In this document: positions 4,533 to 42,879 of the stretch, one piece after another | Position numbering within the stretch: the first letter of the stretch is position 1 | Layout: each line of letters starts with the position of its first letter | Source: Antedon mediterranea | Taxonomy: Eukaryota; Echinodermata; Crinoidea; Comatulida; Antedonidae | Assembly: GCF_964355755.1 (NCBI RefSeq) | Contig: NC_092675.1 | Span: forward strand, 25,708,412-25,772,411 | DNA: 64,000 nt | Direction of reading: 5' to 3' | Program-made: the position numbers and the translations under genes | The notes under the pieces: generated by a model | The model's input: only the letters and a program-made list of their open reading frames with translations | Told to the model about the DNA's origin: nothing | Databases searched by the model: none

Positions 4533-7500
4533 ATGTTTGCGTTTGTATACACCATCGTCTGTTTTATGACATTTATGCATATATCGACATGTAGAGTCAT
4601 GTTAACATGCTTCGATACGTTCGAATTAGGTAAGTAATTTTTTTGTCTAACCTAATTTGTGTGCATATATACATAAATATTCGAGGAAATTGTGTAACTA
4701 AACAAAAAAAAATAAGTAATAATAAAATAAACTAGAGGGTACTCCGAGAGTACAAGGCTCCGCCTACTGTAAAATTCACCTACATAAAATGTCTCCGGAT
4801 ATATTTTTTTACAATTTGTTTATTAGCTCTAAATGTAAATAGGCTAACTGCACACTACAAAGTTGTGGATGAGAGTTTGGTATAATGGTTATGTACACAG
4901 CCTCTCACAGTTGAGATCGCTGGTTCAAGTCCGGACTGGACGAAGGGATGGAATTCCCAGACATCGGCGTTCCTATGGTGATTGTAATATCTGCCATTTT
5001 GGACGATATAGCAATATATCATCTCCTGTATGAGCTCAAGAAATGTTTACAATTGATGATATTTTAGGCTGTGTTTGTGGTGTATACCATCAAATAACCG
5101 TAATTTTAAACCTTAGTTTCTATTTTTAAAACTTTGTTTATAGTAGCATCTAGGCCTAATTTAATAATAATAGTGAATCTAATTATTAGTAGGCCGTATT
5201 GTCATAACCATCCCATCATACATTTCGTTTAATTTAAATGCAATTTTCTAGCAGCAATTATTCCACAAAATAATAAATAAATGAAAACAAAAAGCACCTT
5301 TAAAACGGTTGTCAAAATTGTTTAGTGTCAGAGTTGAAACCAGCTACACAAGTTTCAACAGCGTGGTCCGGTTCAGCCTCAAGGGCTGTGGACGGTGGAG
5401 ATTATTTCGGCAGCGGTTCATGCTCGCAAACGGGTAAGTCATATTGCGTATTGCATATTGTTGATGAATGTATTTTCTGTATGAAATAGGCTTAGAAATA
5501 CTTCTAACGTTGTTTTACCAGCATCCATTAAAATATTAACATATTCATATTTTTCAAACTTTTTAAAAATGAGTAAGCCTATATTTTTAAATTTTATAAT
5601 GAAAACTTTGGCTAAATATTTTTATAGGCCTAATCTTAGATTTTATAATCGTCCTTCTCGCCCCAGGTAAACTCTGCTTTCTTTACAACCCATGCAATAG
5701 TGTAAATACCATGCTTAGAAACGATGAGTCTTCAAATGACAATATTTTTCCATTGTCTACAATTCTTCTATTATCACGTTATTGCATGTAGGTTATTTTC
5801 TTTATTTTTCTTATTTTCGTTTGCCTATCTATTTCTTTTATTAAAGGTAGCCTATATACAACGTGGTGGTATGTTGACCTCGAAACGGAAATATTCATTT
5901 CGAAGATTGTTATATTTAACAGAGAAGATTGTTGTTGTAAGATTATATTAATAGTAATTTTAATGCAATTCTCTCTGGGCGGTTTCTTCCTTTTTAAATG
6001 AAATGAAATTAATTTTTCATCTTTTTCTCATTTTCAGATTGTTCAGCGGCGCTTAGAGGCACGCTATATTAAATTATGTTTAAAAGTAGGCCTATTCTAA
6101 GTATTGCATGTGTTTACTAGTCCACAATTGAGAGTGTTGAAAATCACTTAGACCACTGGGGCTTTCGTGGTATTGTTCAAATTCGATTTGATAGCGAGAC
6201 TCGACGTGGTACAGCAGAAGAGCTGAAATATGATTGTTAAGTCTTGTTTTGCATATTTTCAAATATTGCTAGTGCACCTTGGTATAGTAATATAATTGAG
6301 CTCTTTCTTATTTTTGTTTAAGTCGATTCGTTAGCCGGTCTTCGTGTTCTTGTTGGAAATAACAATGTTTCACCATTTTCCGGTAATTCGCAGTGTGGGC
6401 GGATGCTTTCACAATTTGATTCAATCGCAAGCAACCCTATATTAATAACATGCAGGCCACCTATTTCTGGGCGGTATGTTACTTTAATTAAATCAGGTCT
6501 ACGTGACCATCTTTCCTTATGTGAAGTAAAGGTTTACAAAGGTTTGTACATACTTGGTAATAGAACTTTTTTATTTTCTTTTTCGACATCATGAACTGCT
6601 TCATGGCACACATGTAAACTTAATTTGTCTAAAAAAAGCCATTAAAATCACATCTTTCCACCCAGTCAGAGAATCCTATTAATTTCTTAAAATAATAATA
6701 ATAATAGTCTGTTCTTATATAGCGCATATAAGCAGGCTCTCAATGCGCAAAAATAAAAGCAGGAAATATAATAATTGTGATAGTCTAAATTGCACCATGC
6801 AATTATTATTATTGTCATCAATATTGTTATAATAAAATAAACATGTGTATAAAAAATAATATATTTTCGAGAAAAAAAATATAATAAATATATATATTGT
6901 ATTTCTTTATAATAATCTTAATAAAACGAATGGTCGAACAAATGGATGTAAAGTTGTGTAACCAAAAAAATTGCATTAAATTACCGACTGTCGAACTTAA
7001 CAATATAAATAACATTGGTTTTGCAGATATCGGAAAACCTGAAGTTGTGTGTCCAGATGATATAGAAGTAAATGTTGAAAATAATCAGACTTTACATCAA
7101 GTTAATTGGAATCCTCCCGAAGTTTCTGATAATTTTCAGACGGATCTTTTGGCAACCTGTTTTCCATCATCAGGTTCTTTATTTCCAATCGGATTCACCC
7201 AAGTTACTTGTTCAGCAACTGACGCAACTGGCAACGAAGACTACTGTTCGTTTGTTGTAAATATTGCAGGTTGTAACAACATGGATAAAAAGTTTTTTTT
7301 TCAACCTTAATTACTCTCAGGACCCATGGGGAAGTCACATCCGAGCATTTACCTTCTTCAGATTTAAGTTTATTGTTCTGATTCTAATTGCTCATGTTAA
7401 TTGTTTAAGGGTTATTTTTAAAAGCAATTAAAGTTACATAAAACTCTTTGAGAACGTCAGCAACTCATGTTACAATTAGACACAACTGTTTCACTATTTT

Positions 7501-10445
7501 ACGCATGAAAGAAACTTGTACATCACAATTGCAATATATTTTTGTTCTATAGATAATAAAGAACCAGATCTAATTTGTCCTGAACATATCAAGGTAAACA
7601 ACCATACTGACCAGTACGAAAATCCAGTAACATGGAGTGACCCTACAGTGACCGATAATTTACATAAAAATATATCAGCAACTTGCACACCTGCCTCGGG
7701 GTCTATCTTTGACGTTGGATCAACTATTGTCACTTGTTCTGCAACAGATGGTACTGGAAATTTTGGAAGTTGTTCGTTCGTTGTCCATGTCGTAGGTGTA
7801 GTATTTATATCTGGTAAGCATAACCGTTGTAGGCCTACCTATGCTATCAGTACCTAGTTAAACGATCTGTTAAACTATAACTAGAGTGTTGCTTGTCTTA
7901 AAAAGGAAAAATGATAAACAGTTGGCATAACGTAATAAACATCTAATAAAGTAAAATCGAAACAAGTAAATGTTGCAATAGCTCTTACTGTTTTCCCCTG
8001 AACATTTTTTTTTAAACAAAAAATGTTGAATATGGCATTTTAATGTCGCTTAATGGTTATTCAATTTGACCAAACAGTGGATACACAAATAATAGTCAAT
8101 CGGAAGCCCATTTTGTCAGGCTGTAAAAAAGCTTTTATTTATAAGGCGCCTGTAAATAACATTATATTTATAGATGACGAACGGCCCGTTCTCATTTGCC
8201 CTGAGCACATTACGGTAAATAGTGATGATGAGACTAGAAAACCAGTTACTTGGAGTGACCCAATATTGACACTGGAAGGTATATCAGCAACGTGTACCCC
8301 TCCACCGGGGTCACTCTTTGACGATGGTTCAACCATTGTCACGTGTTCTGCTAGAGACAGCAATGGTGGCGTAATAAAATGTTCATTTGTTGTTAATGTT
8401 AAGGAGAGATTTATCTCAGGTAAGAGTGTTTAATATTGAACTAGCAATACAAAGAACAAAATAAACAGCTGGGCTAGTCAATAGAAATACTTCAAAAGAA
8501 TGACATATTTGCAGAGAACCAACAACTTAAACCTTAGCACCTGTTTGGTCTTTCCTTGCCTTATTGTTTTGTCTTCTTTGTATTTTGTATGGCAGAAAAT
8601 TGAATAAATAAATAAATAAATAAACCATTCTAAATAATTGAAAGTGGAAATATATGGTGTAAATTGTAGTACCAAAGTTTTAGAAGAATTTTAAAGTTTC
8701 CTTGAAATACTATGTTGTCTTTCAAAATCTGGGCTGCCATACGCCTACTAATTCTAAAAGTTTGGCAAATGTAAAACAAAAGGCAAGAGAAAGGTAGACG
8801 ATGTGGCTTTCAATTTGATTGTCCATTTGCAGTAGAATTTATATTTTTCTTGGAAGAATATTTAAGCTGTGGTGCTAATACAGAATTTTGGAACAAGTCA
8901 GAGTTAATATAGAATTGCTACCACTACAACAACTATTACCACAACAGATTACTATTACTATTAATACAGACAAAACTCACAATTACAACATTTTTTTTTC
9001 AGAATGTGTAGAATTGTTTTTGAATAATTAAAATTTGTTTATCAAATGTTCACGTTAAACATACATAATAATTAATATTGTGATCAACCTTTTTTTATTC
9101 AACAGATCATGATTGCTACTAATAACAAGTTGTAATAATAATAGTAGGCTACAGTAGCACATACACTTGATTACTTACAGTGTAAACATATGACAGTTCA
9201 GACCAAAACACAAATTGAATATTTTTAGTAATATTTTAAAATTATAAAATTGACTTTAAATGTACTGAATCAAAACAATTGTGTCAGTATTTGGTGAATC
9301 ACTCAACATAAACTACGTTTTATTTTTTGCATTGGTAGATCTTGTTATCGGTATTGTGTGTCCAAGAGACATTACGTTTAATACGGATCAGCCTGCAGTT
9401 GTATGGAATGATCCAGAGTTGACAGACAACGATGGTACTGACGTACAGCCAACTTGTAATCCACCATCTGGCTCTACGTTTGAAGTTGGATCAACCAGGG
9501 TTACTTGTTACGCAGTTTATCCTATTGTTAACATCAGCTGCTGGTTTAATGTTGAGAGTATAAAACGTTCTACGCCATTTGCAAGTTAGTACAGTCATTT
9601 TGGGGTTATTAAAATCTTGAAAATGTTCGGATAATAGCTATATCATTCACATTGACTTCATGAAAAAAAAAATTAAAAATTAATATTATTATCTCGAGTT
9701 AATAGGGCGCCCTCTGTCGGTGTGAAAGTATATTTTTCTGTTTCTATATTATATCTATTTCTATATAATTAAATCATGTATGCTATTAATATAAGTACTT
9801 AACATAATTATGTGTATATTATAATTGTTTTTAAACTGAAATTTAAAAAAAACCTGCATGATAAACATTAATTGTTAAGTTATTATTTTTGAAGATCATG
9901 CGCAAAGTGATATCGTGTCCAGTGACTCCGATAAGGGGTCCACCGACAACGGGTCTACTGACAGCGGGTATACATGCACAATTCCTTGGTTGATAGCAGG
10001 ACTCATGTTCTTCGTAGTGCTTGTACTTATTGCATCAGTAACAGTTGTGGTTGTCCGGTAATGTTTATATTATTTGTAATATTCCTAAATCTATGAATAT
10101 CATTGTTATATGTTATACAGTAGGAAGCCAAATATAATGTTTATTACGGAATTATGTGGAATTAATGACATACGAAAATATTGAAATTACAAAGGCAAAA
10201 TCACATTTATTAATACATTTTATCTCGAGTGTACATATTTGCTTTACCAAAACAATAGTTGAGTATATACATACAAACAAAGCAAGCACACGTTTTGGTT
10301 TTAATTTAATAGTCCTAGAAATAGAAAAATTGTTTTGTTGTCATGTTTCAGATATCGTAAATCAAAGCAGAGCACACTCGGAATCATTATGAAAACTGAA
10401 GAAGAATCAGTGTCCTGGGAAAAGGGAAATAATATAATATACTAA
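4533..10445 (+). CDS. Gene A: transmembrane F-type lectin with four HYR domains (588 aa)
   Basis: Ten exons join in frame: 4533-4629, 5326-5433, 5847-5936, 6323-6541, 7027-7269, 7553-7813, 8174-8419, 9339-9584, 9895-10057, 10352-10445, all with AG/GT borders. Residues 1-32 are a hydrophobic signal peptide exon starting MFAFVYTIVCFM. Residues 33-171 form the eel-fucolectin (FTP) domain with the WWYVDL block and NREDCC. Residues 172-503 are four HYR domains with the CP..I, TW and VTCSA motifs. About 504-557 hold a Ser/Thr/Asp-rich stalk and one membrane helix, and the rest is a basic-then-acidic tail ending NNIIY. All joins are phase 1 except TM/tail (phase 2). The lectin domain has Gln where paralogues have the fucose-binding His, and Ser where they have the last Arg, so canonical fucose binding is probably lost. 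Cell-surface location follows from the layout; function is inferred. Confidence 0.85.
4731..5000 (+). mobile_element. tRNA-derived SINE-like repeat, copy 1 (gene A intron 1)
   Basis: The sequence from 'actagagggtactccgagag' onward is repeated at 25701. It contains a pol III A-box-like block at 4878-4888 (tggtataatgg) and a B-box at 4922-4932 (ggttcaagtcc). The 3' border is uncertain, as the two copies diverge after the B-box. Confidence 0.6.
6140..6230 (-). mobile_element. Fragment of the SINE also present at 44528-44855
   Basis: The block 'gaccactggggctttcgtgg' and the following 'tattgttcaaattcgatttg' are near-copies of bases about 44681-44725. The copy lies in the intron between lectin exons 2 and 3 of gene A. 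Confidence 0.55.
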
Positions 10446-12456: not shown

Positions 12457-15400
12457 ATGTTTGCGTCAGTGTACACTCTCGTCTGTTTTATGACTTTTCT
12501 GCATATATCGACATCCAGAATCATTCAGTCATGCTACGATACGTTTGAATTAGGTAAGTTATACTCTATTTTTTCAATCATTTAATTATTTTAGCATACC
12601 GGTAACGAGTCTTTGAAACCCCATGTTTAACGAAATAGCACAAGAGTTACACTAGGTAAGTTATTCTGGAATTTATTATGTAATGTAAATATATAATTAC
12701 TTTTATTTCAACGGTCTATTTACTATATATTATGATAGATAAGTTTCAAAGTTAGTATTTGCCATTGGTACCCAGATTTTTCAATTAAATTCAACTTGGT
12801 TTTATTTTCCGCACAAGGAAAACCACAGGCCTATATAATATGGATGATTCATATTTTAAGATAGTTCTATAACGTAATGTATATAATACTGTCGATGATA
12901 ATAATACTAATAAAGGCGAATCATATAATAGAAATAAATAGATCAGAGACGCTTTTACAGCAAATTTGAACCAATTATTATTGTAGATTTTGAAAACGTA
13001 CAATGCGTCGATTTTCTTTCCGTCACAAAAGCCAATATTATACTTTACGGAACACGACGGTTAGTGGGGAGGACGACGAATATCCTGAGTTCGCTAGAGC
13101 GTAAAATCATATACAGTCAGCATAGCCATAGTTTTATTAGGCAAGCTTGGTTCCCACTAGAACGTATCGCAAGGACGTAAACGCAACGCAAGCGTTTTAA
13201 CCAATGACAAGCGAAGTTATAGACAGTTATCAATCACAGGCGAATAAGCCATCGCTTGTGATTGGTCAATTCACTTGCGTTGCGTTACGTCCTTGCGTTG
13301 CGTTACGTCCTTGCGTTGCTAGTGGGAACCACGCTTTACGCACTTTTAGAGCCTTTAGGCGAAGACGTCGACCGACAGTCTCTCCCTCCCCTGTCTCGTG
13401 GCGCAAGCCCTTCTGAATAGCTTGGCTATGGGGATACCGAATAGGCCTATTATAGTCTTCCTAGCTAGGGCCTCGCATTCAACCGCCGCTTTTAAGACAG
13501 CCATTTTAACCTAATAAAAATGTTATTTCATTAAACAATTAAATTAGAAGTTCAAATATTATTTAGAGTTTTGAAAATTTGAATTGAATATAAAAGGTTA
13601 TATATACATTATTTCTAGTTGTTCTCCGTAAACGGGAAAATGGCAACTTTATCGTCCTCAAAAAGTTAAGACGACGGAATTTCACTCTAAGCTCCGCCCA
13701 CTTTGTTCAAGTTCATGCATAAAATTATTCATGGCTGTGGCTTCCCGTCGTGTTTCGTAAAGTCCCTATTATTATGTTTACGTATCTTTTACAAAGTTTA
13801 GAACTTTATATATATTCCTGCTTTACCTCAGTCACATAAGGTTCTGGATTATAAAAATAGGCATACGTCTACATCTCCAAAATCATCAAAACTATGCTCG
13901 TTATAAATATATAACTTTTAAAACCACTCTTCATTTTCTTCAGTATCAGAGTTTAAACAAGCTAGACAAAGTTCAATGAATGCAAATGGTGTTGCTTCAT
14001 ATGCTGTTGACGGTGGATTAAGTGGGCAATACAACAGGCGAACTTGCTCTCATACCAGTAGGTATACGAGCCTGAAGTCTTTTAAATACTATTAAAATGG
14101 TTAATATGTTTATATGCTCTAATTCTTGCCCACCCGCAAGGGGACTGGAGTGTAACTAAATGTGTTTATACTATTAGTAGTGAATGGCAATCAGTTGAAC
14201 GAGGAAGAGAAGAAGAATTATTTTACGAATTGAAAGATTTAATGTTTAACGATTTGCCGAGTTAAATTATCCAATAACGCTGGTAACCAGGATGGAAGGG
14301 GCGGGTGAATGTTCCCCTTTTGTAGAAAAACAACATCCTTTGCAAAAATCCTGGCTCGTTCGTTTCATAAATAACAAGAAATATTTCTTACAAAAAACGC
14401 CGCTTGACATTTTAACATCAATCATTGTTCTTTTGATTAATTTAAAATTAATTATTAAAAAAATGTCATTTAATCGCAAAAATACATACAAATCACAGAT
14501 AGTTCTTTAATTATGAATCACATGCCCATTTTTTCACTAGTTAATTGTATACACAGCATTTGAAAGAAGACATGTGTATTATTTGCCAACAAACATTAAT
14601 CTACTAATTTAGAAATGGAATTTAAAAATGGTCAATCTTGAACTTCAATGTGCTGTAGTCTGTTTGTTGTGACCTCAACCTGTACTGAAGGCATGTAATT
14701 AAAAACCCTCTAGAAACAACGTGACTTCACGGTGGTACAAGTGACAAAATTCTTCCACAATCTGTTGATTCGCGTCAACCACCAATCAAAGGGCGAGAAT
14801 CCATAATCGTTACCGTAAACCGTGGGCCCTCATACTCTCTTTTTCCTGACGTATTTTGGGTCCAGCAGCTGGGACCTATAAATTATAGTCGAGTTTACAA
14901 ATTCGCAAAACTGTCAGCCTTAGATACTAAAGCTACCGCTATGAAACAGCTTATTAATGAATATGTTCTTCTGGACATAGCTGGCTAGAGCCGTGGCGCA
15001 AAAATATTCTGCAAACAGGGATTTTTTATTTTTTTATTTAAAGCTCAACAGAATCGACCGTGGTGGTATGTTGATCTCGGAACGGAAACAGTAATTTCGA
15101 AGATTGTTATATATAACAGAGAAGATTGTTGTGGTAAGAGTACATTAATCATTGATAAAAAAAATATTGGGGCGTTTTTTTAGGGCATATCAATTTTTAC
15201 CTCTGTTGCATGCGTGTATTGCTATCGCTGTAGACGGTTAAGCAAGTCACTATCCGTGTTTATTATATCTTTTTAAAATGTTTGGGTCCAACCCATGATA
15301 ACATACAATGACAGCATTCAGTAGTCTAATGGTAATGTCAATCAATATTTCTCAGTTTAGTACATATTTAAAATTTATCATCGTTTATTTATCGTGCATT

Positions 15401-18400
15401 GTGGTAACATTCAATAACTTTATTTTTTAAGCGGAGAGGTTGGCAGGTATGGAAGTTCGTGTCGGCAATAACAATGTTTCGCCTTTTTCGGGTAATGCAC
15501 AATGTGGATCGACTATTTCACGAATTACTGCAATCGCAATAAACCCGATAGAAATATCATGCAACCCACCTATTTCTGGGCGGTATGTTACTGTATCTAC
15601 ACCGATTTTAGGAATTATCACATTATGTGAAGTAAAGGTTTTCAAAGGTGTGTATAAACATCAATATACGATAAACATTTTTAAGGTCTATTATGTGTTA
15701 TTATCTATTATTGGCAGAACGCTTGCAAAGTTACTACGTATATTTGTTTTATGTAAGTTTTTACACAATACACAGCAAAAAGTTACCGTCGACATATTGC
15801 TATCAAAATCTCATGTATCTTCAATAGGCGCCCATATCAAATAAAACGCCCTCTGTCGTTTTTATGCATTTGCCGAGTATTTTTCGCTCAGAGTTTTTAC
15901 AATAAACAAATTTTATTTTTAAAACAATATACCGACATTTTATAAGTCAAAGACATACTACATTAGGTTTTATAGATATTATAGATATATGTTATAGATG
16001 ACAACTTTATTTACCAAATGTTTAATAATATAATCAACTAAGCACTAACATTGGTTTTGTAGATATTGGAAAACCTGAAGTTGTGTGTCCAGATGATATA
16101 GAAGTAAATGTTGATAATAACCAGACTTTGCACCAAGTTACTTGGAATCCTCCTGAAGTTTCTGATAATTTTCATACGGATCTTTCGGCAACCTGTTCTC
16201 CGTTATCAGGTTCTTTATTTCCCATTGGTTTCACCCAAGTTACTTGTTCAGCAACTGACGCAACTGGAAACGAAAGAAACTGTTCTTTTGTTGTAACTAT
16301 TGCAGGTCAGGAAACTAATGATACTATGAAAATTACAAAGTTTTATTTTAAATCTTTATGTTTTGATATAGGAGAATTAATTTTAAAAATTAAGTCACTA
16401 ATTGTATGGTTAAATGTATTATTGAAAGACAACTATTAGACCTCCTTCAAACCCCCCCACCCCAAGATATCTAATTTAAATATTACATTGTTCGTTAAGC
16501 TCTGTCTACACTATCAATGACATCATCAAGTCCATATGCATAATATATAGGCACATTACATAAAATGTGATACTGTAGACAGAACTTTATATAACGAATA
16601 AACATGCCTATTTCTTAAATTATAATTTATATAATCATAATTGAAACATTTTGAACATATTGAACCAATATACTCTTGAACTAAGGCTCTGTCTACACTA
16701 TAACACTTTATGTGCCCATATATGGCCATGGTGATGTGAGATCACTGCCATATTTGAGCATATCACTACCAATTGGGCAAATTACACTTTTTTGTCAACT
16801 AGTTTGATAGTGTAGACAGAGCTCAAGATCAAAATACTTATTATGTTATTTTTTAAATGTTTTTTAGATAATAAGGAACCAGACCTCGTGTGTCCTGAAC
16901 CCATTATTGTTAACAACAGCACCGACCAATACGAAGACCCAGTTACCTGGAGTGACCCAACCGTAACTGATAATTTGCATAATGATATTTCCGCAACTTG
17001 TTCACCTGAATCGGGATCAATATTTGGTGTTGGTTCAACTATTGTCACGTGTTCTGCAACGGATGATACTGGAAATGTGGGAAGTTGTTCATTCGTTGTC
17101 CATGTCACGGGTCAAAAATTTATTTCTGGTAAGCATAGGCCTAACTTCTACTATTTTTCTTTATTATCTAAAGAACAGACAAATATACATATACATAATA
17201 TACAGTATAATTGCAATTGTCTCAAGAGGGTAAACTTTTGTCTTTAAAATTAGTATTGCTATATCTCTTTTAGCTATTCATCGTGTCCGTGGGTGGTTAT
17301 GGGTGCAGAATAAATCTCTTTCTAATTCATCAAAATATATTTATGACAATTCTATTCTATAAAAGTTTTCATGTGCTGCCCTACGAAGAACAGAGCACCT
17401 AACAATAATAGTATTTTAATTAAAATGAAGAAGTTTTAAGTTGACGTTTTCGCTCCTCTCAAATCGACAGGCACCGCGTTCCAGATCCCCGGAGCGGTGA
17501 CAGAAGAGACATTGTCACCAGCTTTCCGATTAGATCGTGGAACGAAAAGTCGAGTGGGACAATTGGAGGAGCTGATCAAAATTGGAATGCAGTATTTTAT
17601 TGTGTTCCTTAATGCATTAGTTTTAATTTGCATAATGAATATAGCCATACAGAGTTATTTTAACGAACACATTTACGTTTGAATATGCAACAACATTTTC
17701 AAAATGGTGCTTTTACTGTTTAATATTTTATAATAAAACACTTAAAACTTAAATGTACAGGTGACCAACGACCTTTCCTCACTTGTCCTGGGCATATTAC
17801 CGTGAATAGTGATCAATCTAGGAACCCAGTTACTTGGACTGACCCCATATTGACGCCGGGAGGTATATCAGCAACGTGTACACCTGCGTCGGAGTCAGTC
17901 TTTGACGATGGTTCAACCATTGTTACATGTTCTGCTAGAGACAGCAATGGTGACGTAATAAGATGTTCATTTGTAGTTTATGTTAAAGAGATATTAAAAT
18001 CAGGTAAGATAATATTATATTAGTATCACTTGACAACATTGAATTTTAGTGTAGTCATTAATTCATGCAGTTAAGACAGAAAACGGACACCCTTAAAACA
18101 TTCTAAATAAAAAGGGAAACCACATTATGGAACCCGTAGTGTCCAAAGTCGGATAACGGTCTCTAGAAGTGTGCTGTATGTCATGTTTCTTAACGTCTGT
18201 GCTTACAATTACAAGGATAGTTTCTAGAAGAAGTTTATGATATAATGTTTACAATTTATATGTAGGTGCTTTTTGGAACAATTTGAAAGTGTTGGCAAAT
18301 TATATTTTATTGTAGTACCGGTATGAAATTGGATGTTCTGAAAAATTTGAGTCTACGTAACAGTATTGCCAATTTGAATTGTATGTGTCAATTAGAGTAG

Positions 18401-23500: not shown

Positions 23501-25190
23501 TGAGCATATTAGTGTGGACAGTGATCAATCAAGGACAATAACTTGGAGTGACCTTACATTGACATCTATGTCAGCAACGTGTACACCACCGTCGGGGTCA
23601 GTCTTTGACGATGGTTCAACGATTGTCACGTGTTCGGCTAATGACGTTAACGGTGACATAATAAAATGTTCATTTGTTGTTCATCTTAAAGCGAGATCTA
23701 GTTCAGGTAAGTGTATGTCACTTGGAGGCCCCTCACAAGGTAGGCCTACAGTTTTTGTCGCGAGTAGCGTCTGCATAAGCTTAGCAACAGGAGGTTGAAA
23801 AATATACAACAATAATATAAACAAGGCCATATACATAGCTGCAGTCGAGTGCGCAAATTTGAGTTAGTAATCACTTAAACAGTAAACATGTTTGATATCT
23901 TTTTAAAAGTCTTTAGAGCTAGATTTAAAAAAAAATATCATTACATAATTTTATTCCAAGATATATTAGTGTAAACATAGACTGTCAATGACAGAATAAG
24001 CACATTTACATGATATGGCATGTCTGTGTGAAACGACGTCCAATAGGAACATTGCCATTCAAAATAATAATCAAACAAATAACAAACACAAGAAAGATCC
24101 AAGTATTCAAAACTTTAGTTTGGGTATGGGACATGCACATTGGAAATAAATCATACTACATCGTAACCAAACTTGTGCTGGAAAATACACTATAAGAGCA
24201 GAACTGAAAGACTAATTAGAATTTACAGCCTAACTACTTATTTTGGTTTGATGGCACTGTGGAATAAAAAATTATCATATAATTTAGAATTAAATTAAAA
24301 ATTATGCTAAACCGGACTTTTAAATGTACTGAATAATGGTTATTATGTTTTAATTATTATTGGAAGATTTTAGTATTGGTATTGTATGTCCACGTGACAT
24401 TACGTTTAATACGGAACAGCCTGTAGTTGTATGGAATAATCCAGAGTTGACAGACAACGTTGGTACTGACGTACAGCCAACTTGTAATCCACCATCTGGC
24501 TCTACGTTTTTAGTTGGATCAACCAGAGTTACTTGTTACGCAGTTTATTCTATTGTTAACATCAGCTGCTGGTTTAATGTTGGGAGTCTGATAAATGCTA
24601 CACAGTTACCGGGTTAGTAGCCTACACCTGATATCAACTATATAACACACAATAAATAGTGCAATGTTCTGCTCGCGTGCATTTTAAATATTCTTTTATT
24701 CTGTATGCTTTTAAAATCTTTCTTTAAATCAAATTTGTGATTTTCTTTATAGTTCCAAACCTATAAAAATCGGAAAAATCAATAACATTCTTAAATCTTT
24801 ATTTTCAAAGGGTATTCTCATAGTGACAACGAGTCTAAAGACACACATCACTATTTTGTAATAGGAATAGGCTGTGTAATGGTTGTTCTTATTGCATCAG
24901 TCATAATTGTGGTTATCAGGTAATGTTCATATTATTATTTACGATTACGAACCAACTTAGAGTTTCAAAAACTGTTCGATAAGATCAATTTCTATATATT
25001 TGACTCATACTTACCTAGCATTCTCAAGAAAATGTCAAGACATTATGTTTATTATTTCCTTTTGAAAACAAACCTAACTTTACTGAAATTAATTTGTTTC
25101 AGATATTACAATGCAAAGCGTAAGCAGATTACATTTGAAATCAATATGAAAGCACAAGAAGAAACAGTGACTTGGGACATAATAAAATAA
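20572..25190 (+). CDS. Gene C: transmembrane F-type lectin with four HYR domains (573 aa), HYR2 split by an extra intron
   Basis: Eleven exons: 20572-20665, 20809-20925, 21364-21456, 21678-21893, 22234-22476, 22571-22708, 22944-23087, 23473-23706, 24367-24612, 24811-24919, 25103-25190, in continuous frame. The signal exon starts MFAPVYIIVSSM. The FTP domain (about 32-173) has CSHT and RIDCCATR with 27 residues between His and Arg. HYR domains follow; HYR2 is encoded by two exons, unlike A and B, with an extra segment around 'ASDLVGGSGEVWLH' replacing the usual 'VTDNLHN'. The TM exon is shorter, with a brief stalk before the helix. The tail is Lys/Arg-rich, then 'EETVTWDIIK'. The split HYR2 join is predicted from AG/GT borders and frame, and could instead be a damaged exon. 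Confidence 0.82.
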
Positions 25191-27348: not shown

Positions 27349-30300
27349 ATGTTTTCTAGAATATATATTCCTGTATCTTTATTGACGCTTGTTGAATCTT
27401 ATAATCCATTTGTCGCCGAACGTTATGGTAAGTTCTGCACTCCATTATTTAAGTATCACATAATAAAATAAATAAATCATGAGAAAGTAGCAGACTTGGT
27501 GTGATGTTTTCTAAAAAAACATAAACTGTCGTGTGTTTGACAGTTTCTCCATCATGTTGACCAAAAAAATCATCAATAAATTACTCCGCCGGCCATACTG
27601 TAGACATTAGAGATATGCTGAATGTATAACAAGCTACAAAAGTTTGTGTTTTGAACAGATCTGGTTTCACGGGGAAAAACTGCAAATCAGAGTTCAACGC
27701 ATGGACCTAGTGTGGCAAACCAGCAGTTGATGGCCGTAAGGATGGAAACTATTGGGCTCATTCTTGTACCCATACAGGTAAGTAGGCCTAATCATGTCTT
27801 AAACGTAAGGTAACAGTTTAGGGACTACGATAAGTATGCAATGTACTTTCAACATCGTTTCCTTAATATGTAAAGTAAGACATTTGTAAACAATATCCCA
27901 GTATAATCTCTTATATTATTACGACCTATTATGCATTCGCAAAAGACGGGTTAATACAAACAGAACATAAGTTTTCCATCTTTTAAGCTCGGTTTCCATT
28001 AGCTAGGACATAACACAGGGAAGTAAGGGCAACGCCAGTGATATTACCAATCGCAAGCTGTCATTGGTCATTTCACTTGCACTGCGTCTACGTGGGGACC
28101 AAGCTTTCAAACATTATTTTACGTACTAGTGTAAATACTAATTATTTAAAAGTTTCTTTCACATTCGTTTACTTTATCTGCAATCAATTTAAGCAGCACA
28201 CGAGACAAACCCTTGGTGGTATGTTGATCTCGGATCATCAAGACTTATTGCAAAGATCATCATATATAACAGAGTTGATTGTTGCGGTAAGAGTTTTATC
28301 AGTACATTATTTTGCTAATTCCTGTATTTATTTAAACAGGCAAAAAGATAATTATAATACTATGGAATCGTAAAAATCAATTGGAAACGTTTATGAAAAA
28401 AAAACACCTTTTACAGCGTTGCAACTAGTAGTAGGCCTAAGGCAAAACTAAAACTTCAACTCTTAACTAGTTGTTCTATTTTTTGTTTTAAGGAGAACGG
28501 TTAGATGGAGCTATTTTGGGTGTAGGAAACGACAAGGTATCGCCGTTTAGAGGAAATTCACATTGCGGGACATTAGTTATAGCCGATAATAGCCGGCGCA
28601 TACAACGACTGTGCTTTTTAGAAGGCCAGTACATTAGTGTTTATATACCAAAAAAGGAGGCTCAGTCTTTTTCTATTTGTGAACTAGAAGCATACGTAGG
28701 TATGTACAGTATAATCTGAAATAATTAAATTCACAGAAAAATAATAATTAATTAATATTTTGTCACCGACATGGTTAATTTATGATTTGATTTAATTTCT
28801 GGTATTCTTCATTCGATGAAATTTGAAAAATTATTGGTTGCTTTACCGCTTTCCTGTTTATTGTAATAATAAAGGTCTTTGTGAATAATACACCAATAAC
28901 GACATAGAAACATCATAAATATATAATATCTCTTTATATAATGTATTTAGAAATCCTTCCAAACAAAAAAAAAGCTAATTATTTTTTATTATGTTACAGA
29001 TACACAGAAACCTTTTGTTATTTGTCCAGATGACATTGAGATAAATTCTGATGCTAATCAGAATTTAAATCCTATTACATGGCGAGATGCGGTGGCATTT
29101 GACAACACTGGTCATAAAAAGAATAGGCTTAAGTTACGCTTCCATGGTCATAATAGACTAGTAGCCACTTGCTCAAAGCCATCTGGTTCATTATTTGAAA
29201 TTGGGTTCACCAAGATTTCTTGTTCTGCAACTGACCGAAGTGGAAATGAAGGCAATTGTTCGTTTGTTGTTCATGTCAAGGGTTAGACATTGCGTTTTTG
29301 TTTCATTGTTTAGGCCTAATATCTTAGGTTACTGGGAGTATTGTAGGTGTCACTACCAGATTCTTAGCATGTATTCCGCAGTAGGCCTATCATGGGAAAA
29401 TTACGGCATCTCACGTGGTGCTTGTATTATGTAAGGTTATTACGGTCTATGATAACTACACTAGGTAAAACAACATCATATTAATATAGGGTATATATCT
29501 ATTGTTTTCAAAGTCAAACTGAAGTAATCGTTATTTCCAATGAAACTTACTTAGCAAAATAATCATTTCTTTCATTTCTAAAACCAACTAAATTAGACAT
29601 CAAAGAGCACGCTTTCACTTGTCCCGAACACATTACTGTGAAAAATGACGTTGACCAGTCTGAAGATCCTGTAACTTGGAATAAACCCACAGCGATCAAC
29701 AAAGAACATAAACCTATACCAATCACATGTACGCATGCATCTGGATCAATCTTTGACGTTGGTTCAACTATTGTCACGTGTTCCTCAACAAGAGGTACTG
29801 ACAAAGAAAGAAGTTGCTCATTTGTTGTACATGTCATAGGTCAGATATTTCTTTCAGGTAAGTCTCGTTGTTTTATTTACTCATAAGTGGTGTCCATTTA
29901 TACGGCTGTAACTTGTGAAAAGTTAAATCACATTTCTTGTTCTTACAATACCTTTTTTTTTGTAGATGTCCCTATCGTGATGTGTCCTCAAAGCATCTCA
30001 TTGTTCTCTGATAAATCTTTGCAACCAGTGACATGGAACAAGCCAAAGGTGGTGGACGATTTTGATAGCGATTTAGTGGCAACCTGCATACCTTTCTCTG
30101 GTGATTTCTTTGCACGTGGATCAACACAGGTTACATGTTCAGTGACCAATTCATTCGGAAACAATGGCAACTGTTCTTTTGTTGTTGATGTCACGAGTCT
30201 CAAGTCACCACAAGGTGAGAATTATTCTTGTCACTGCCTTCAATTATCGTATAAGAATTCCCTCTAAATTATATTACACGTGTAGGACTACAGTATAACA

Positions 30301-30949
30301 ATATTGGAGAGTATATTATGTAGCGTGACTTTTTTTACAATTTAAATTTGTTAAAGCTTTATCTCAAGATGACGATGCGTCTGACATCGCACATGGGTAC
30401 TTGGCAGCAGCTGTTACCGTTCTTAGTGTGATGGTGTTAGTATTGGTGCTAATACTTACCATCATAGCCAGGTTTGAGTAGACATACATAAAATAAATGA
30501 GTATTTGTATCGGCGGTAACATAAAAATGAAAACAATCCAAACCGATAGCCTATGCTAAAACACGTTTTTAACACCATGTCTCTTGCCGTGGCCCTTTGT
30601 GGGAAGTTGCAAATTAACTTGAAAATATCGTAAAAAAAAGATCAACAACGTACCCATATAATATAAATCGAATACGCCATATAATACACATATGATCTTT
30701 TGAATGGAATCACTGAATGGAGATAGCATAAATGCTGACGATGAAGAAAAAGAATGTTTGCCTTGCAAATTAAAATGAGTGGATAAAAGAAAGACAAAAA
30801 GAAAGAAAGAAAAATAGAGCACCATCAAATTAAAAAAAACCAAAATAACAAACAAAATCTTGTTGTTTTGCAGATACCATACACGTAAGAATAAAGCTGG
30901 AGGAATTAAAACGGAGGATAACAACGCTTCTTGGATTGTGTTGGAGTAA
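27349..30949 (+). CDS. Gene D: transmembrane F-type lectin with three HYR domains; one-base frameshift in lectin exon 1
   Basis: Nine exons: 27349-27427, 27659-27777, 28197-28286, 28493-28699, 29000-29281, 29597-29857, 29966-30214, 30357-30471, 30874-30949. Compared with gene F, the second exon is 119 instead of 120 bases: after 'gtggcaaac' one base is missing (near 27721), which throws the frame. Everything else is intact. A repaired frame would give about 492 residues with CTHT and RVDCCGER at the exact HX26RXDX4R spacing, three HYR domains (HYR1 with an extra His/Lys/Arg-rich loop), a 'DDDAS' stalk, one helix and a tail ending NNASWIVLE. The acceptor of exon 3 is a tandem aagcag (start 28194 or 28197). 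It is either a very young pseudogene, a sequencing error, or a gene that skips exon 2, which would keep the frame. Confidence 0.7.
27985..28106. mobile_element. MITE family 1, decayed copy
   Basis: It begins 'aagctcggtttccattag', holds 'caatcgcaagctgtcattggtca', and ends 'cgtggggaccaagctt', matching the ends of the 13143-13336 copy with many changes. It is in gene D's intron before lectin exon 2. Confidence 0.6.
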
Positions 30950-33420: not shown

Positions 33421-36416
33421 GGATTTACATAACATCAATTCCATAATTATCAAAATAGCTGTCTCAACGACATGGCACTAAATATTTCGGTATAATAAGT
33501 AGAAAAAACTCAGTCTTCATTGTGTGGTGCTTGTGCCTCACAACCATTATTTGATTCAAGGTCCATTAAGCACACTTATGGATCCAATGTTAATGCCTGA
33601 TAATGTTGTACATTGACCAAAAGAAAAGATATTTTCACACAGAGCTGCTGGTTACAGGACTAAGAAATGCAACACAGAGTTCAACGCACGGACCAGGTGT
33701 TGCAAATCGAGCAGTTGATGGCGGCAAAAACGAAAACTATTTGCTCATTCCTGCTCCCATACAATTAAGTAGGCCTAATCATACCTTAAACTAAGTAAAA
33801 TTAGGTGATAATTATACAATGTAGGCCTACTTTCAAAATCATTCATTGAGACATACAGAAAGTAACAATACTGATGATAATAGGCCTAACACCTTTTAGC
33901 TTATTTGGATCCACTATATCAATGTACTCGTGTACGAAAAAGTATATTTCAAATGCGCTCAATGGCTGCACACCAAATGTACAATACGATACGATAGTAT
34001 TTATTGTCATTTATTACAAGAAGGTACAAATAAAATTTGGTTGGTTGATTTACATTTCATATAAATACAATAACAAAGAAATTACAGAACAAATGTAATA
34101 CGACATATTATTTTAAAACGATGTTTTAATTTTGGATTAAAACCAAAGGTTACATGATGTCTCTTTCAATTGCGTAAATATGCGACTTATGATTATTAAT
34201 GATTAAAAAGTTCAATCCATCTCTTTATTTGCATTTTTTTAGCACATGAGACAAACCCTTGGTGGTATGTTGATCTCGGATCATCAAGACTTATTGCAAA
34301 GATTGTCATATATAATAGGGATGATTGTTGTGGTAAAAGCTTTAGCATTTTATTTTACAAATGTAAATCCTGCACGCATTTCAGGTCGGCAGCTCAAATT
34401 TTAAAAAAAGGAGACGGGATCCACCCGATTCTCAGTACTGAGATAGATTTATTTTATTATACATATGAATTTAATACAACCCCACTAACTGTGTTTCACA
34501 TGTATATCCTAGTACCATACACCATAAACTAACATTTTATGATACAGTCACCGTGTGTGATACATATGCTGTATTACCAAAAATGATACAGGGCAAATAT
34601 TGTAGAATATACAGCATTGAGAATCCGATACAGGATCATATCAGCTTGGAATTTGTTATGATTTACAATTTACTATTCTGTCTTTTAGAAGGTCAGTACG
34701 TTAGTGTTTACATACCAAAAATGGAAGCTCAGTCTTTTACTATTTGCGAACTAGAAGCATACATAGGTATTTATATTTTTAGACAATTTAATATACAGCA
34801 CAGAAAAGTTCTTACTATAGGTCACTGACAATGTTAACCCGTAAAGCCGTCGATCCTATTAATATATAATTGCATAGAAGATGATGTGTAGGAAATTGTA
34901 AATAATTTTCTTGAAAAATAGTCATTAATCTCATATCGATAATTGGTTAACATCAAAATTCACTTATCAGATAAATTAAGGCAGTCTTTCAAAAATCCAT
35001 CTATCACATACAGATACAGGGAGCCCTTATGTTTTTTTGTCCAAACGACATTGAGGTGAGCTCTGAAGTGGACCAGAACGTGAATGCTGCTTCATGGTAT
35101 AGTCTTACGGTTATTGACAATTATTTCGTTGACAATCACATAGTAGCCACTTGCTCAAAGCCATCTGGTTCCATATTTGAAGTCGGGTTCACCAAGATTA
35201 ATTGTTTGGCAACTGACCAAAGTGGAAATGAAGGCAATTGTTCGTTTGTAGTTCATGTCAGAGGTTAGATTTTGAGTTTTCTTTATTGTTGATATTGGAA
35301 GATAGTAGACCCTGCGCATACAAAATGGTGGATTAATTTAAATTCTTGCTGTCATTTTATCTATATAAAACATACATATCATTATAATAAAGGTCGACCG
35401 GAATGTTTTCATTCAAATTCAGCATGTTAATACTAGCCAAGTACTACTAAACAAGTTAAAACAACAAAGTCGAATACGGTACTAGTATGTAAAACGTTGT
35501 TTTCTAAAATCAAACGTAAGTACACTACGTCTACGCATTATATCGACACTTGTTTGTTTATGGCGATGTTTTACACTAATTTAAATTTCTACAGTAAACT
35601 AAATTTAGATGACAAAGGGCCTACCCTCACTTGTCCCGAACACATTACCGTGAACAATGACGTTGACCAATCTGAAAATCCTGTAACTTGGAACGAACCC
35701 ACAGTAATCGAAAACGTACATAAAAATATATCAGCAACGTGTTCACATGCATCGGGATCAAATCTTTGACGTTGGTTCAACTAATTGTCACGTGTTCAGC
35801 AACAGACGGTACTGGAATGTAGGAAGTTGTTCGTTTGTTGTCCATGTCATAGGTCAGACATTCCGTTCAGGTAAACACTTAATTAAGATTGTTTAATTGA
35901 CTGAAGTGGTATTTCCATTTAGAACCGAAACAGTACTTCAATCTCCAAACTGTTTCTCAACCTACAATCAGAACGTTTGATGGCAAAATGTTATGGGAGA
36001 AACCTACTGGGGTCTACCTATATCTATTTTCTATTACTTATAATATACGGTGCCTAATATAACATAGTTACATACAGACTTAAGATATGTGTACCTTATA
36101 TTATTTTAAAATAAATGTTAGCAAGATCTTTTCTTCTGTAGATGTCCCTATCGTGATGTGTCCTCATAGCATCTCAACGTGCTCGGAAAAATCCTTGCAA
36201 CCAGTGACATGGAATGATCCAAAGGTGATGAACGATTTTATATCGATTTAGTAGCAACCTGCATACCTTCATCTGGTGATCTCTTTTCACGTGGATCAAC
36301 ATTCAACACAAGTCACATGTTCAGTAACCAATTCATTTGGAAACAAAGGCAACTGTTTCTTTGAGCGAGCATAGTCAATGTTAATGAGTTCAACTACAAT
36401 TATGCCTAAGCCTATG

Positions 36417-36819: not shown

Positions 36820-39800
36820 ATGAAGTTTAGAATATATATTCTTGTAACTTTATTGTCTCTGGTTGAGTCTTTCTTATCCAGAAGCGGCACAAGTTCTTTC
36901 GGTAAGTTGTGCATCCGATTATTTAATAAAAATTGCTTGACTTAACTTTCTTAACGTTTTTTTAGTATCTGATACTTAAGGTCAAGGTGTCACATCCATG
37001 TTGATACAAATCCATCAAGCAAACGCGTAAATCCGCCTAGTGTAATATTAAGTATGATATTGTCAACTTGTATTGCCTTTCGATGTCTTTTCCATACAAA
37101 AAGACAACAACCCTACACAATTTGTTGGTTATCCGCTCTTGGCGGATAATTGGTTATCCGCTCTTGGCGGATAACCCCTTGTTATTGTCAGGATCTTTTT
37201 TTTTTTTTTTTTTTTTTTCGATATTCTTCTTTCTTTCCCCGAATTTTGTTCGCAGCGTATCTCTAATTCTTGCTGACATAACATTGCATAACTTTGTCAT
37301 AAGATTGACCTATAACTTTAGATGTGCAGCCAAGCTTTTCGGTGATTTAGGAGTTGCGCAGCGTAAGTTACGCGCGATTTTATGAATTTCAATGATTGAT
37401 CATAGATTAAAAACCAAAAGTCATTTTCTATTGAAACTTGGTAAAAATTTAAGTCATATTATGCGCAAACTTTCTATGGATTAAAAATGGCATGTTTTAC
37501 ATAAAGTTACGCGCGCACGCGCTTTCAAAATTTCAAAATGCGCAAAATTCATTTCTAATCATTTTTCTACGCGTTTCATGTCATTTTGAGCATTTCAAAA
37601 TTTCCCACGCGTGCGCAAATTTTGTACGCGCGCGTGCGCACGTGGCGCAAAAACATCCCTTTTTTGCTTGATTTTTGTTTTTTCAGCCTTTTCTAGTAAA
37701 TTTATCAATTTTCAATCAATTTCGACTTAAAATCACGTCACACGAGCTCGTAGAATTGGATAATTTGCGCGCGTTTTTGATGAAAAACTTCAAAAATTTG
37801 TCAAAATTAGACCTTTTTTTAAACAGTCATAAATTCTAAACTACATTGTGAACTTTTTTTAAATTACATATTCTGGAAGTAGATGAGTTTTATTTCTTGA
37901 ATCATGCATTGATATGGCTAACCGGACATTGTGACGTCATCGTATGGGCACCCGAATATAAAATATAGGATTTTTTTCTCTTTCGTCATAGCTCGTCGAA
38001 TTTATTAGAGCGCATCTCTACTTATCCGTCTTCAATTTCCCCCATTTCTTTATATTGTCTAAGTTCATCAATTATCTTTCACATGATTTGCCATTTGCAA
38101 AATTGTGATGACGTCATCATGTCCAAAAGCGTCAATTACTTTGGTCACTTATTTTCATCTATTCTGAACTGTATGTAGTAGGTATGTATAGTGTTATTTT
38201 GTATATACTTAGACGTGACACAAAATAGAGGGCACACTAACATTTTTTCAATGGCATAATCGTTTTTCTGCGCGCAATATTCTAACGTATGACGTGCACG
38301 TGGCTTTTGCGCTGCGGATAACCTAACTCGTCCATAGTGACGAGTTCAAGTCTAGTTTTTATTTAGAGCTGGTTTCACGATTTAAAAATGCAAATCAGAG
38401 TTCAACGCATGGACCGGGTGTTGCAAATCGAGCAGTTGATGGCGGTACAAATGGAAACTATTTTGCTCATTCTTGTTCTCATACATGTAAGTACTATAGT
38501 GAACATTAATTTATGAACAATTGTGTGATACCGACCGGGCTCAATCTCTTAAAAGAACACATATTGGACAAAAATCTATCAGTTTTACAGGAGTTAAGTT
38601 ATGGAACAGCTTATTAAAAATTCTTTAAATTTATACTCATTTAAAAATTACTATCAAATATTTATTTGACGAAATGCCTAAAAAGATTTTATATTTTTAG
38701 ATTACTTCCGATTTGTGTTCTTGTAATGCTAATCTTTCACTGTATTAGTCCTATTAATGTGCCTTTTAGTTTTGTAATTATAGTTAAGTTCCATTAGTAA
38801 ATTGATCAACTTCAAACTTCAAACTTATTTCACTATTTACCATCTTCTTTTAAAGTAAATTATTCTTGTTGTTGTTATTGATAACTTCTTATTACTTACT
38901 GTTTTTAAGGGTCTCGGCTTAAAACTTTGTTTATTTAAGTTCCCTTTCCATAACTTTTTGATGACATATTTGTTCATAGTTTTATGGAATACATTGATTT
39001 TAATTGATTTGATTGATTGATTAAATGCGACTTTTATAATAAAATAACTTTAAAATTGCGTATTTTTTCTATTATATCATTAAGTACATGGACGGAAAAA
39101 CCCGTGGTGGTATGTTGATCTCGGATCATCGACAACTATTTCAAAGATTGTCATATATAACAGAGATGACTGTTGTGGTAAGAGTTTTAGAATTTAGTTT
39201 TACTCATGTAATTATTTCTGTATTTATTTAAACGAAAACTAATTCAAAGATTGACATTATATTACAGATATTATATATTGTTTGAAGGTATGTATGGCGA
39301 AATCAAATGTTAATATAACGTTTGCGGTACACCACGTAGGCCTACATTTTAGAATTTAGTTTTTAATAACAAGACTAGTATAGTCAGTAGGCCTACATCA
39401 ATTAAAAAAATAAGATCAACTAAACAAGTTGATGTACATGTTTTACTTGTAGAGGCAAAGGTCAAATTTCAGGTTTACCTTTACAATTATAACAAAACAA
39501 TTGTTCGTTCAATTTTAAGGAGACCGGTTAGATGGAGCCGTTGTGAGTGTAGGCAATGACAATGTTTCACCTTTTAGAGGAAATTCCCAATGTGGATCCA
39601 CAATACGTAGCAGCTCATTGTACAGCCGTCGCATAGAACTACGGTGCCAATCAGAAGGCCAGTACGTTAGTGTGTATGTACCAGGAACGGATGCCCTGTC
39701 TCTTTGTGAACTAGAAGCATACACAGGTGTGTACTATATAAAAACAAACAATTGATTGACAACACGAAAATAGTATTACAAACACAAGATCACAGATCAA

Positions 39801-42800
39801 AAAGATATATTAAAGAAGCTATTTGGATAAAAAAAACCATGACAACAACAAAGAAAGAATAAGGCACATACAAATGATAAAATATTTAACATCTGATAGT
39901 CCCTGAATTAGACTATTGGAGGGCAAACACAACACCCTTAGCAACCAACAACAAATAACCTGTCATTGCCCCAGCGAAACGTAACAATACGTCAAAATTT
40001 CGGCTTACTCAATTACAAGTAATTGATACTTATCTAATAATATTGAACTATTAGTGACGTGATTAACGGAAACATTTTATAGTAACTCATACATCTTTGC
40101 AGACATACAGGCTCCTGAGGTCTTGTGTCCAAGTGATATTGAGATAAGTTCTGATGTCAATCAGAATGTGCATCCTGTTAGGTGGCAACCTCCTATTGTT
40201 ATTGACAACACCGCCCGTGTAGCCATTTGCTCAAAGCCATCTGGTTCCTTATTTGAAGTTGGGTTCACCAAGATTACTTGTTCTGCAACTGACCCAAGTG
40301 GAAATGAAGGCAATTGTTCGTTTGTAGTTAATGTCAAAGGTTAGTATTTAAGAATATTAGTCGCTTTACACAAGCACTGAAAGTTACCGGTAATCATTTC
40401 CTCTGTAAATGTGTAATTTCACTCCTTCCTGGTAAAACACTGCAATGACAACGATTTTCCACTAGACGAATTTGTTCTCGCGAATTGAAAGCGTCAGCTT
40501 ATACGCATGCGTAGAGATGGATTTGGTAGATGGAAAATATATAGGCGTAAGGTTTTATAATTTTCGCACGTCATTACAATATTGGATACTCGACTAGACT
40601 GTTTTTTTTTAAAATTCAGATAAATAGCATCTAATCCTCTGGAGTGTGATTGCTAAACAATTATAATTATTATTAATTATTTTAAGAATGGTACTAATTC
40701 AGCATGCATTTATGACTATTTGGTTTTTTATATCTATAGGCCTACAGACAATTTGTTTGTGGCAAAAATGAGAAATATTAATATACCGTAAAAAAAATAA
40801 ATTAGTAGATGCGTAGTAAAAACACTAAAAACCAACGTAAGTATGGTACTTGCACTTGCACTTGCTTGTGACGTTTTACAATATATTTTAAAACAATGTT
40901 TACAACATACTAAATTTAGATGTCAAAGAGCCTACTCTCACTTGTCCCGAACACATTACCGTGAACAATGACGTTGACCAGTCTGAAAATCCTGTAACTT
41001 GGAATAAACCCACAGTAATTGACAACGTACATAAAGATATATCAGCAACGACGTGTACACATGCATCGGGATCGATCTTTGATGTTGGTTCAACTATTGT
41101 CACGTGTTCAGCAACAGACCGTACTGGGAATGTAGGAAGTTGTTCATTTGTTGTCCATGTCATAGCTCAGATATTCCTGTCAGGTAAATTTTTAATAAAG
41201 GGTTTCCTTTACTCTACTACTATGGAGTGAGTGCAGAATCTGTTTGGGCTTTAGCCTATTCTCATTCCTGGTTATTTTTTTACATTGATGACTGAATAAA
41301 TATTATTATTATTACAGTATTATTATTGTTATTACTCTATTATCATTGGTGTTACTTTTTAGAACCGGAACTGCACTCCATTCTACAAACTGTTTTTTAA
41401 CCTACAATCAGATTGTTTTAACGTGATGGAAGACAACTGTGGAAGTTCCACTCTAAATTATCTTTTATAATACACTTAATTAAATCATACGTCCACTACC
41501 TGATATTTAAATCAAAAACTTCCTTTCTTTTGTAGATATACCTACCGTTATGTGTCCTCACAGCATCTCAGCGTGCTCGGATAAATCTTTGCAACCTGTG
41601 ACATGGAACAATCCAACGGTGGTGGACGCCGTTGATATCGATTTAGTCGCAACCTGCATACCTTCATCTGGCGATCTCTTTGCACGTGGGTCAACACAGG
41701 TGATATGTTCAGTGACCAATTCATTTGGAAACAAAGGCAACTGTTCATTTTTAGTTGATGTTACAAGTCCCAAAGCACCACAGGGTATGTATACATATTT
41801 CTACATAAGTCCTTCTACGTCTACATCTAACCAACAGTCCGCTCTAAATTATAATCATACAGGACGTGTACAACATTCTTTGAGTGTATATATTTCATTT
41901 CATTTTTATTAATTACACTCTGTATGATACAAACAAAAATTGATAACAGAAAACGTGCATGTTCTATTCACTGCAATTAATATGTTTTTTTATTTATTAT
42001 TAAGTTTAATAAAACATATAAGCTCACTGTAGTAATTCTCGTTGAGCATAGGGTTGTTTTGGTTTTTTCTAATAAACCAATCCTTCACTTTATACAGCCC
42101 GAAGCAAACTTACGATATATGAATTTTATCTTTTTCGTTGGCATTATACATCTTAACTTGTTTATAAACTTATCTTTAAAGCTTTAACACAAGATGATAA
42201 TGCGTCTGACGTCACACGTGGCTACCTGATAGCAGCCGTTGCCGTTCTTAGTGTCATGGTATTAATCTTGGTATTAACAAACATCATCATAGCAAGGTTT
42301 GAGAAGTGATTTTCTTTCATTTACCAGAAATAAAAATATAGAGATAAATGACATGTAGATGTCAAAATCAATTATTAAAAAAAAAAAAAATTACGCAACT
42401 GAACTTGCAAGTAAAGGTAAATTATTTTACAGGAAATAAATTGAATGTATTAGAAAAAAAGACATTATTAAAGTAGACGTATGTAACTAAAAAAGCTATA
42501 TGATGAACTAACTTACTACAATTTGAGTGGGAGTAGGCGATATACTATACAGCGATCTTGGCAGTAATTGTGGAACGAACATGGCACAGATGGAAAACAT
42601 AAGAATGTTTTTTCTTGCAATTTCTAATGAATAATAAGTATTATCAAATTGAGCTGATTAAGCGGTAAAAGATACTGTTTTTGGTTCAACAAAAAAGTAA
42701 AACATTTCTAGATTTTTAATCAATACGCCTAAATATTTTATTTCAGATACTATAAACGCAAGTGTGACAGCTTAGCTGGAGGAATTATAATGAAAATGGA

Positions 42801-42825
42801 GGATAACAACGCTTCTTTTAATTAA
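36820..42825 (+). CDS. Gene F: transmembrane F-type lectin with three HYR domains (481 aa)
   Basis: Nine exons: 36820-36901, 38367-38486, 39085-39177, 39520-39726, 40103-40339, 40920-41183, 41536-41784, 42182-42296, 42747-42825, continuous frame. The signal exon starts MKFRIYILVTLL. The FTP domain (about 28-167) has CSHT, the PWWYVDLGS block and RDDCCGDR (27 residues between His and Arg). HYR1-3 span 168-417; HYR2 carries an extra Thr ('SATTC') from a duplicated codon. A short 'DDNASD' stalk and one helix follow, and the tail ends MKMEDNNASFN. It is the only fully intact member of the D-E-F group. The ATG chosen follows a TATA box by about 100 bases; an earlier ATG at 36813 closes after five codons. 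Confidence 0.86.
37125..38323. mobile_element. CpG-rich element bounded by ggttatccgc / gcggataacc
   Basis: The left end has two exact 25-base direct repeats (37125-37149 and 37150-37174). Each contains ggttatccgc, and together with the following gcggataacc they fold into 10-bp stems. The right end has gcggataacc at 38314-38323, inverted. Inside lie a poly-T tract (about 37197-37219) and a striking block of alternating CG/CA ('acgcgcgcacgcgc', 'gtacgcgcgcgtgcgcacg') near 37507-37640, unlike the AT-rich surroundings. No transposase is seen. It fills gene F intron 1. Confidence 0.55.
38520..39030 (+). mobile_element. LINE C-terminal fragment in gene F intron
   Basis: The frame 'RTHIGQKSISFTGVKLWNSL' followed, after one stop, by 'YLFDEMPKKILYF' is a LINE reverse-transcriptase ending. 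A 3' UTR ends in a ttga-type microsatellite near 39000-39025. It is already interrupted by a stop, so it is an old copy. Confidence 0.65.
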
Positions 42826-42879
42826 TAGAAGTACAAAAATACCACACATTTTACAAAACTATTATTTATGTAAACATTA

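Follow-up and report, generated by a model that had tools for sequence, protein, structure and literature searches.

F-type lectins (FTLs) held at the membrane on a stalk of repeats have been described in Drosophila. The proteins furrowed and CG9095 are membrane FTLs with CCP repeats and a C-type lectin domain, according to the available excerpts of PMC5712786. Like the proteins predicted here, they combine an FTL domain with repeats in the ectodomain and with a predicted membrane helix; on the same partial account they differ in that their repeats are CCP, whereas those found here are HYR, and in having the C-type lectin domain. Neither CCP nor a C-type lectin domain appeared in the Pfam results for G1, G2 and G6, three of the proteins predicted here, at E up to 0.1. 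Since repeat-stalked membrane FTLs are known, the FTL-HYR family can be regarded as a variation on a known theme.

Other described systems share single features with it. The lectin domain can be aligned over its length, its CTH...NRxDCCxER motif included, with eel fucolectin AAA (1k12) and with FBP32 of striped bass (3cqo), but these two consist of one or two FTL domains, and neither an HYR domain nor a membrane helix is mentioned for either in the excerpted descriptions. The oyster sperm bindins resemble it in the clustering of change at the fucose pocket and in recombination between domains (PMC5712786, excerpts); in contrast to a single FTL domain with an HYR stalk and a helix, they are acrosomal with one to five FTL domains. 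In sea urchin, the same excerpts of PMC5712786 describe SpCRL, an echinoderm protein that pairs an FTL domain with other modules. No joint report of an F-type lectin with HYR or the hyalin repeat, or of a fucolectin with HYR, was found in the open-licence papers searched, subscription papers and protein databases lying outside the scope of that search. The statement of an earlier note on this DNA, that FTL and HYR on one membrane protein had not been described as a family, therefore holds for those papers. We consider that the locus is probably a tandem family whose products are type I membrane receptors for glycan recognition, their lectin head being the part that diversifies, a reading to which we give a probability of about 0.6.

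Layout and extent of the FTL-HYR row

The window, which is the whole stretch of 64,000 nucleotides of Antedon mediterranea DNA that was analysed (C6:25708412-25772411; assembly of 354.4 Mb in 18 contigs), contains a row of six FTL-HYR units, G1 to G6, on the + strand at about 4533-42826. The common order in a unit begins with a signal exon and three exons for the FTL domain; three or four exons for HYR domains follow, and a membrane helix and short tail end it. Units were searched for by tblastn with exon peptides in the window together with the preceding 50 kb and the following 10 kb, and each of the six units in the window was found to have lectin exons A, B and C followed by HYR exons. Hydrophobic ATG exons were sought as signal exons and lie upstream of the lectin in G1, G2, G3, G4 and G6. 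Membrane exons, sought by hydropathy, were located in G1, G2, G3 and G6, and that of G4 was recognised by reading the sequence. A phase-1 GT-AG solution is available for every ectodomain exon of the intact G1, G2, G3 and G6; such junctions were imposed in the ectodomain and in the signal exon search, and hence this is not independent evidence. Two of the five complete units tested have a poly(A) signal no more than 400 bases from the stop.

The spliced GT-AG models of G1, G2, G3 and G6 have open frames of 589, 580, 573 and 481 aa; of the four frames listed previously, three lengths stand and the first, given as 588, is corrected to 589. G1 (4533..10445) has 10 exons with four HYR domains, and two of its lectin pocket residues are lost. 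G2 (12457..19774) likewise has 10 exons and four HYR domains, and it keeps the fucose triad. Its lectin domain is encoded at 13944-14057, the exon that bears the loops CDR1 and CDR2, 15044-15133 and 15432-15647; the HYR stalk at 16063-16305, 16868-17128, 17761-18003 and 18665-18910; the membrane helix at 19079-19229; and the tail at 19693-19774. G6 (36820..42826) has nine exons and three HYR domains, with the triad kept. G3 (20572..25190) also keeps the triad and has four HYR domains, yet its second HYR exon is interrupted by an insertion of about 256 bp at 22685-22940. The 573-aa frame is therefore open in an 11-exon model and requires an extra intron. The insertion may be a new intron. It was also considered as a repeat element, a candidate that was rejected when a genome search, which skips very common words, matched the insertion to itself alone.

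The two remaining units are damaged. G4 (27349..30481) is broken by a frameshift and a stop in its first lectin exon; its signal, lectin, three HYR and membrane exons are recognisable, and a tail exon was not found. G5 (33643..36362) is a pseudogene whose lectin and three HYR exons contain frameshifts and stops, and exon searches found neither a signal exon nor a membrane exon for it. The order recurs in six units as had been claimed, and the single pseudogene reported before becomes two broken units. The proteins predicted from the models have type I features by hydropathy, namely an N-terminal signal, a single C-terminal helix and a basic cytoplasmic start, and, to the extent that genomic sequence allows a judgement, the FTL-HYR-TM architecture is real.

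The row begins upstream of the window. Five more units, U0 to U4, bring it to 11 units over ~103 kb, in agreement with the tandem family and copy-number change proposed earlier. U4 runs from signal to tail (568 aa), U3 reaches the membrane exon with no tail found, and U2 and U1 are partial. U0, at about C6:25647.9-25653.5 kb, has signal, lectin and three HYR matches, and the membrane and tail queries were unmatched in it. Signal-to-tail units therefore number five of 11 (U4, G1, G2, G3 and G6), the other six being partial or broken as far as examined. Over their longest shared stretches U1/U4 and U2/U3 are 96.7-98.5% identical, and therefore some of the duplication is recent. At C6:5.889-5.908 Mb, 20 Mb from the cluster, the - strand carries two further complete copies, B1 of 491 aa and B2 of 489 aa.

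The joining of FTL and HYR as a general trait of the FTLs of this genome is unsupported, since eight other FTL places (C5, C7, C2, C11, C7b, C5b, C1a and C1b), a subset of the many FTL-like matches in the genome, gave no match to an HYR pattern. As positive controls, the cluster stretch gave 23 matches, the second locus 5 and the upstream stretch 2; the pattern is incomplete, tblastn giving more HYR exons in the cluster and the second locus. One weak tblastn HYR match at the C7 place (E=0.088, 27% identity) is taken as due to chance. Tandem FTL clusters with the lectin likewise split over three exons, and without any match to the HYR pattern, were seen at C5:25.42 Mb, C7:11.76 Mb and C2:18.30 Mb. 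Dense runs of HYR exons were seen on C1, C10, C4 and C3.

Other features were observed near the row and elsewhere in the genome. On the - strand at about 52497-61402 of the window, exons resemble an RNA exonuclease 1 type gene, which we take to be of the REXO1 type, with a 659-aa open frame at 57704-59683; a Pfam scan of these pieces gave no family over cut-off. Short tandem repeats with 37-bp and 42-bp units occupy 52006-52133 and 57029-57110. A zf-RVT match (2.1e-9) on the - strand at 1831-2283 is probably a non-LTR retroelement remnant. At about positions 1234-1857 of the DNA that directly follows the window, there are two open frames that match the Receptor L domain (E=6e-5 and 1.4e-6); they suggest that a receptor gene adjoins the cluster. 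At C2:7827794-8206132 there is a single Hox cluster of 12 boxes over about 380 kb, with one box inverted near the posterior end. From homeodomain signatures and gene order, the boxes are presumably Hox1-8, 9/10 and 11/13a-c, an ambulacrarian set that points to an animal of that group, likely an echinoderm. Names of this kind are given to echinoderm genes in the available excerpts of PMC11310086. A search for COX1 gave no match, and one for mir-2 gave 132004 candidates, of which 60 were scored, and was uninformative.

Fucose pocket, HYR stalk and tail

The Pfam scan covered three of the four intact spliced models. One F5_F8_type_C_2 domain was found above the curated cut-off in each of G1, G2 and G6, and HYR was matched at 2.5e-42, 1.1e-39 and 8.8e-39 in four, four and three stretches, respectively, all above curated cut-offs. 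The three or four HYR domains first noticed are thereby confirmed in these three models. With the lectin domain of G2 as query, six different PDB sequences matched at E of 0.01 or lower, led by FBP32 (6.9e-41) and the eel lectin 1k12 (8.3e-21), and as a sequence-based assignment the F-type lectin call is firm. The single eel-fucolectin domain per protein is thus retained from these Pfam and PDB matches, with the correction that it is split over three exons. A query of two HYR domains gave no match to PDB sequences at E up to 0.1.

In the eel lectin, the pocket residues His52, Arg79 and Arg86 define the numbering of the fucose triad (PMC5712786, excerpts). The His-Arg-Arg triad is intact in six of eight models (G2, G3, G6, U3, U4 and B2). 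In G1, Gln replaces His and Ser replaces the last Arg; in B1, Ala replaces His. G1 and B1 are without pocket residues, and therefore not all heads could bind fucose in the known manner. The triad motif is written His..Arg.Asp....Arg/Lys, and its Asp is replaced by Asn in both B1 and B2. The His-to-Arg spacing is 24–27 residues in the models and 26 in the aligned eel lectin, the published spacing in the FTL motif being 24. The cation motif is defined as two small hydrophobic residues, Asp-Gly and a small hydrophilic residue. At its site the aligned copies have AVDG or near forms, and in several of them the final residue is Gly; G3 reads AVDSG and U2 AADGG.

The short conserved tail of the earlier note can be followed in five U and G models, where it is 26-31 residues long and has a basic start and a common core around Ile-x-Met-Lys/Glu. 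None of seven tails matches an ITIM-type tyrosine motif. A loose Yxx-hydrophobic pattern occurs in one of the seven (B1), at the membrane edge, and no known signalling motif was recognised in them.

Mosaic histories and loop change

The exons of one unit do not share one history. Pooled dS among U4, G1, G2 and G3 (95% interval) is low in HYR4 (0.06-0.19) and HYR1 (0.11-0.27) and high in HYR2 (0.48-0.96, G3 left out), HYR3 (0.37-0.70), lectin C (0.41-0.75) and lectin A (0.47-1.25); the interval of lectin B (0.10-0.65) reaches into both groups. Such exon-specific silent divergence would be explained most simply by gene conversion or by exchange exon by exon. Similarly, the heads and stalks of B1 and B2 differ in affinity. 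In lectin exon C, identity to G2 is 74% for B1 and 70% for B2, against 46% and 40% to G6, whereas in HYR1 identity to G6 is 82% for each of them, against 57% and 53% to G2. HYR2 goes in the same direction as HYR1 (87-88% to G6, 69-70% to G2). Lectin exon A is contrary, with B1 nearer to G6 (68%) than to G2 (49%) and B2 near-equal (56% and 59%), and lectin exon B does not separate the two affinities.

Trees of head and stalk, whose groups were picked after the alignments had been seen, place B1/B2 with the G2-type units in the head, apart from G6 and the FTL-only genes (90/88), and with G4 and G6 in the stalk (100/100). A head tree in which G6 is forced beside B is rejected (p-AU 0.020). The stalk-tree test (p-AU 0.289) asks solely whether G4 and G6 pair and has no bearing on head-stalk exchange. 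Rapid change of the G6 head could mimic part of the conflict. Nevertheless, parts have probably been exchanged between paralogs, because silent divergence varies several-fold among exons and the head and stalk trees conflict. When 23 lectin rows are put in one tree, 32% of bootstrap trees give the FTL-HYR-TM heads a single origin, and the G4 and G6 heads stand weakly beside FTL-only genes (58/81).

The finding that B1 and B2 have a head nearer G2 on a stalk nearer G6 raises a more specific proposal: a repertoire in which lectin heads are traded among HYR stalks while the pocket loops diversify, the products being fast-evolving surface glycan receptors for microbes or for self/non-self. We regard this proposal as tentative and rather unlikely.

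Rates of change also vary along the coding sequence. Median pairwise dN/dS (NG86, pairs with dS outside 0.05-1.2 dropped) is 0.71 in lectin exon A (34 of 45 pairs usable), 0.23 in lectin exon B (50 of 55), 0.45 in lectin exon C (31 of 45), 0.52 in HYR1 (28 of 45), 0.21 in HYR2 (40 of 45), 0.31 in HYR3 and 0.29 in HYR3b (6 of 6 each), and 0.81 in HYR4 (5 of 6, at very low dS). The terminal partial codon was trimmed from the exon-A rows of U1 and U4. Loops were placed by the published eel numbering, their exact ends (23-34 and 40-48) being our choice, and within exon A they have a dN/dS of 1.13 (bootstrap 0.59-1.79) against 0.20 for the remainder; positive selection is not proven, because the interval includes 1. 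The mean amino-acid difference is 0.58 over 21 loop columns and 0.35 over 116 other lectin columns (permutation p=0.0013), and all these selection statistics are to be read with exon-exchanging paralogs as non-independent samples. In the lectin head, change clusters in the loops that surround the fucose pocket.

Function of the family

That concentration bears on a second explanation, in which the proteins are structural or developmental adhesion or matrix-linking molecules, their HYR stalks tethering cells to a fucose-rich matrix, and their diversification is drift after duplication. HYR domains abound in this genome, where a first look gave 1417 candidates and all of the 150 that were scored were listed, and the tails are without ITIM; both fit such a role. 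Drift, however, would spread change, and the change here is clustered in the pocket loops; we think this explanation unlikely. Alternatively, the family may act in gamete recognition at fertilisation, with egg-sperm coevolution driving the change of the loops. The oyster bindins, FTLs for which positive selection near the fucose pocket, recombination and alternative splicing are described in the excerpts of PMC5712786, show a loop pattern that the one seen here resembles. Their acrosomal location and one to five tandem FTL domains, set against one FTL domain with an HYR stalk, membrane helix and tail in a multi-copy row, make this role improbable in our judgement. It is very hard to sustain that secreted fucolectins are simply interleaved with separate HYR genes and form no joint receptor: the lectin-HYR joining does rest on genomic models, and FTL genes without HYR exons do occur elsewhere in the genome, but one order is repeated across units, signal exons precede lectin exons, introns of 340-485 bp separate the last lectin exon from HYR1 in G1, G2, G3 and G6, and the order recurs in the two copies 20 Mb away.

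A tandem family of membrane glycan-recognition receptors thus remains the reading that we favour. The recognition role suggested in the earlier note is strengthened in that most copies retain the triad, the loops around it vary and the paralogs are mosaic, and it is weakened by the loss of pocket residues in G1, two of the three that bind fucose, and in B1. From the predicted proteins we infer glycan binding, surface display and use as recognition receptors. An N-terminal F-type lectin head would bind fucose-bearing glycans through the His-Arg-Arg pocket, and a stalk of three or four HYR domains would space it from the cell. The single helix would anchor the protein and leave the tail of 26-31 residues in the cytoplasm. 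Duplication, gene death, exon exchange and rapid change of the two pocket-rim loops may then have given each copy its own fine specificity. Because the tail is without ITIM, the receptors may act via a partner protein, or as adhesion or uptake receptors. Immune use of the family is plausible from its sequence features, and recognition receptors on immune cells would be the most likely form of it, with a chance slightly short of even.

Membrane lectins that have kept the fucose contacts while their loops change are testable candidates for glycan recognition in an ambulacrarian. The loops mark the residues to test, the copies without the pocket provide natural controls, and the conserved tail offers a handle on a downstream partner.
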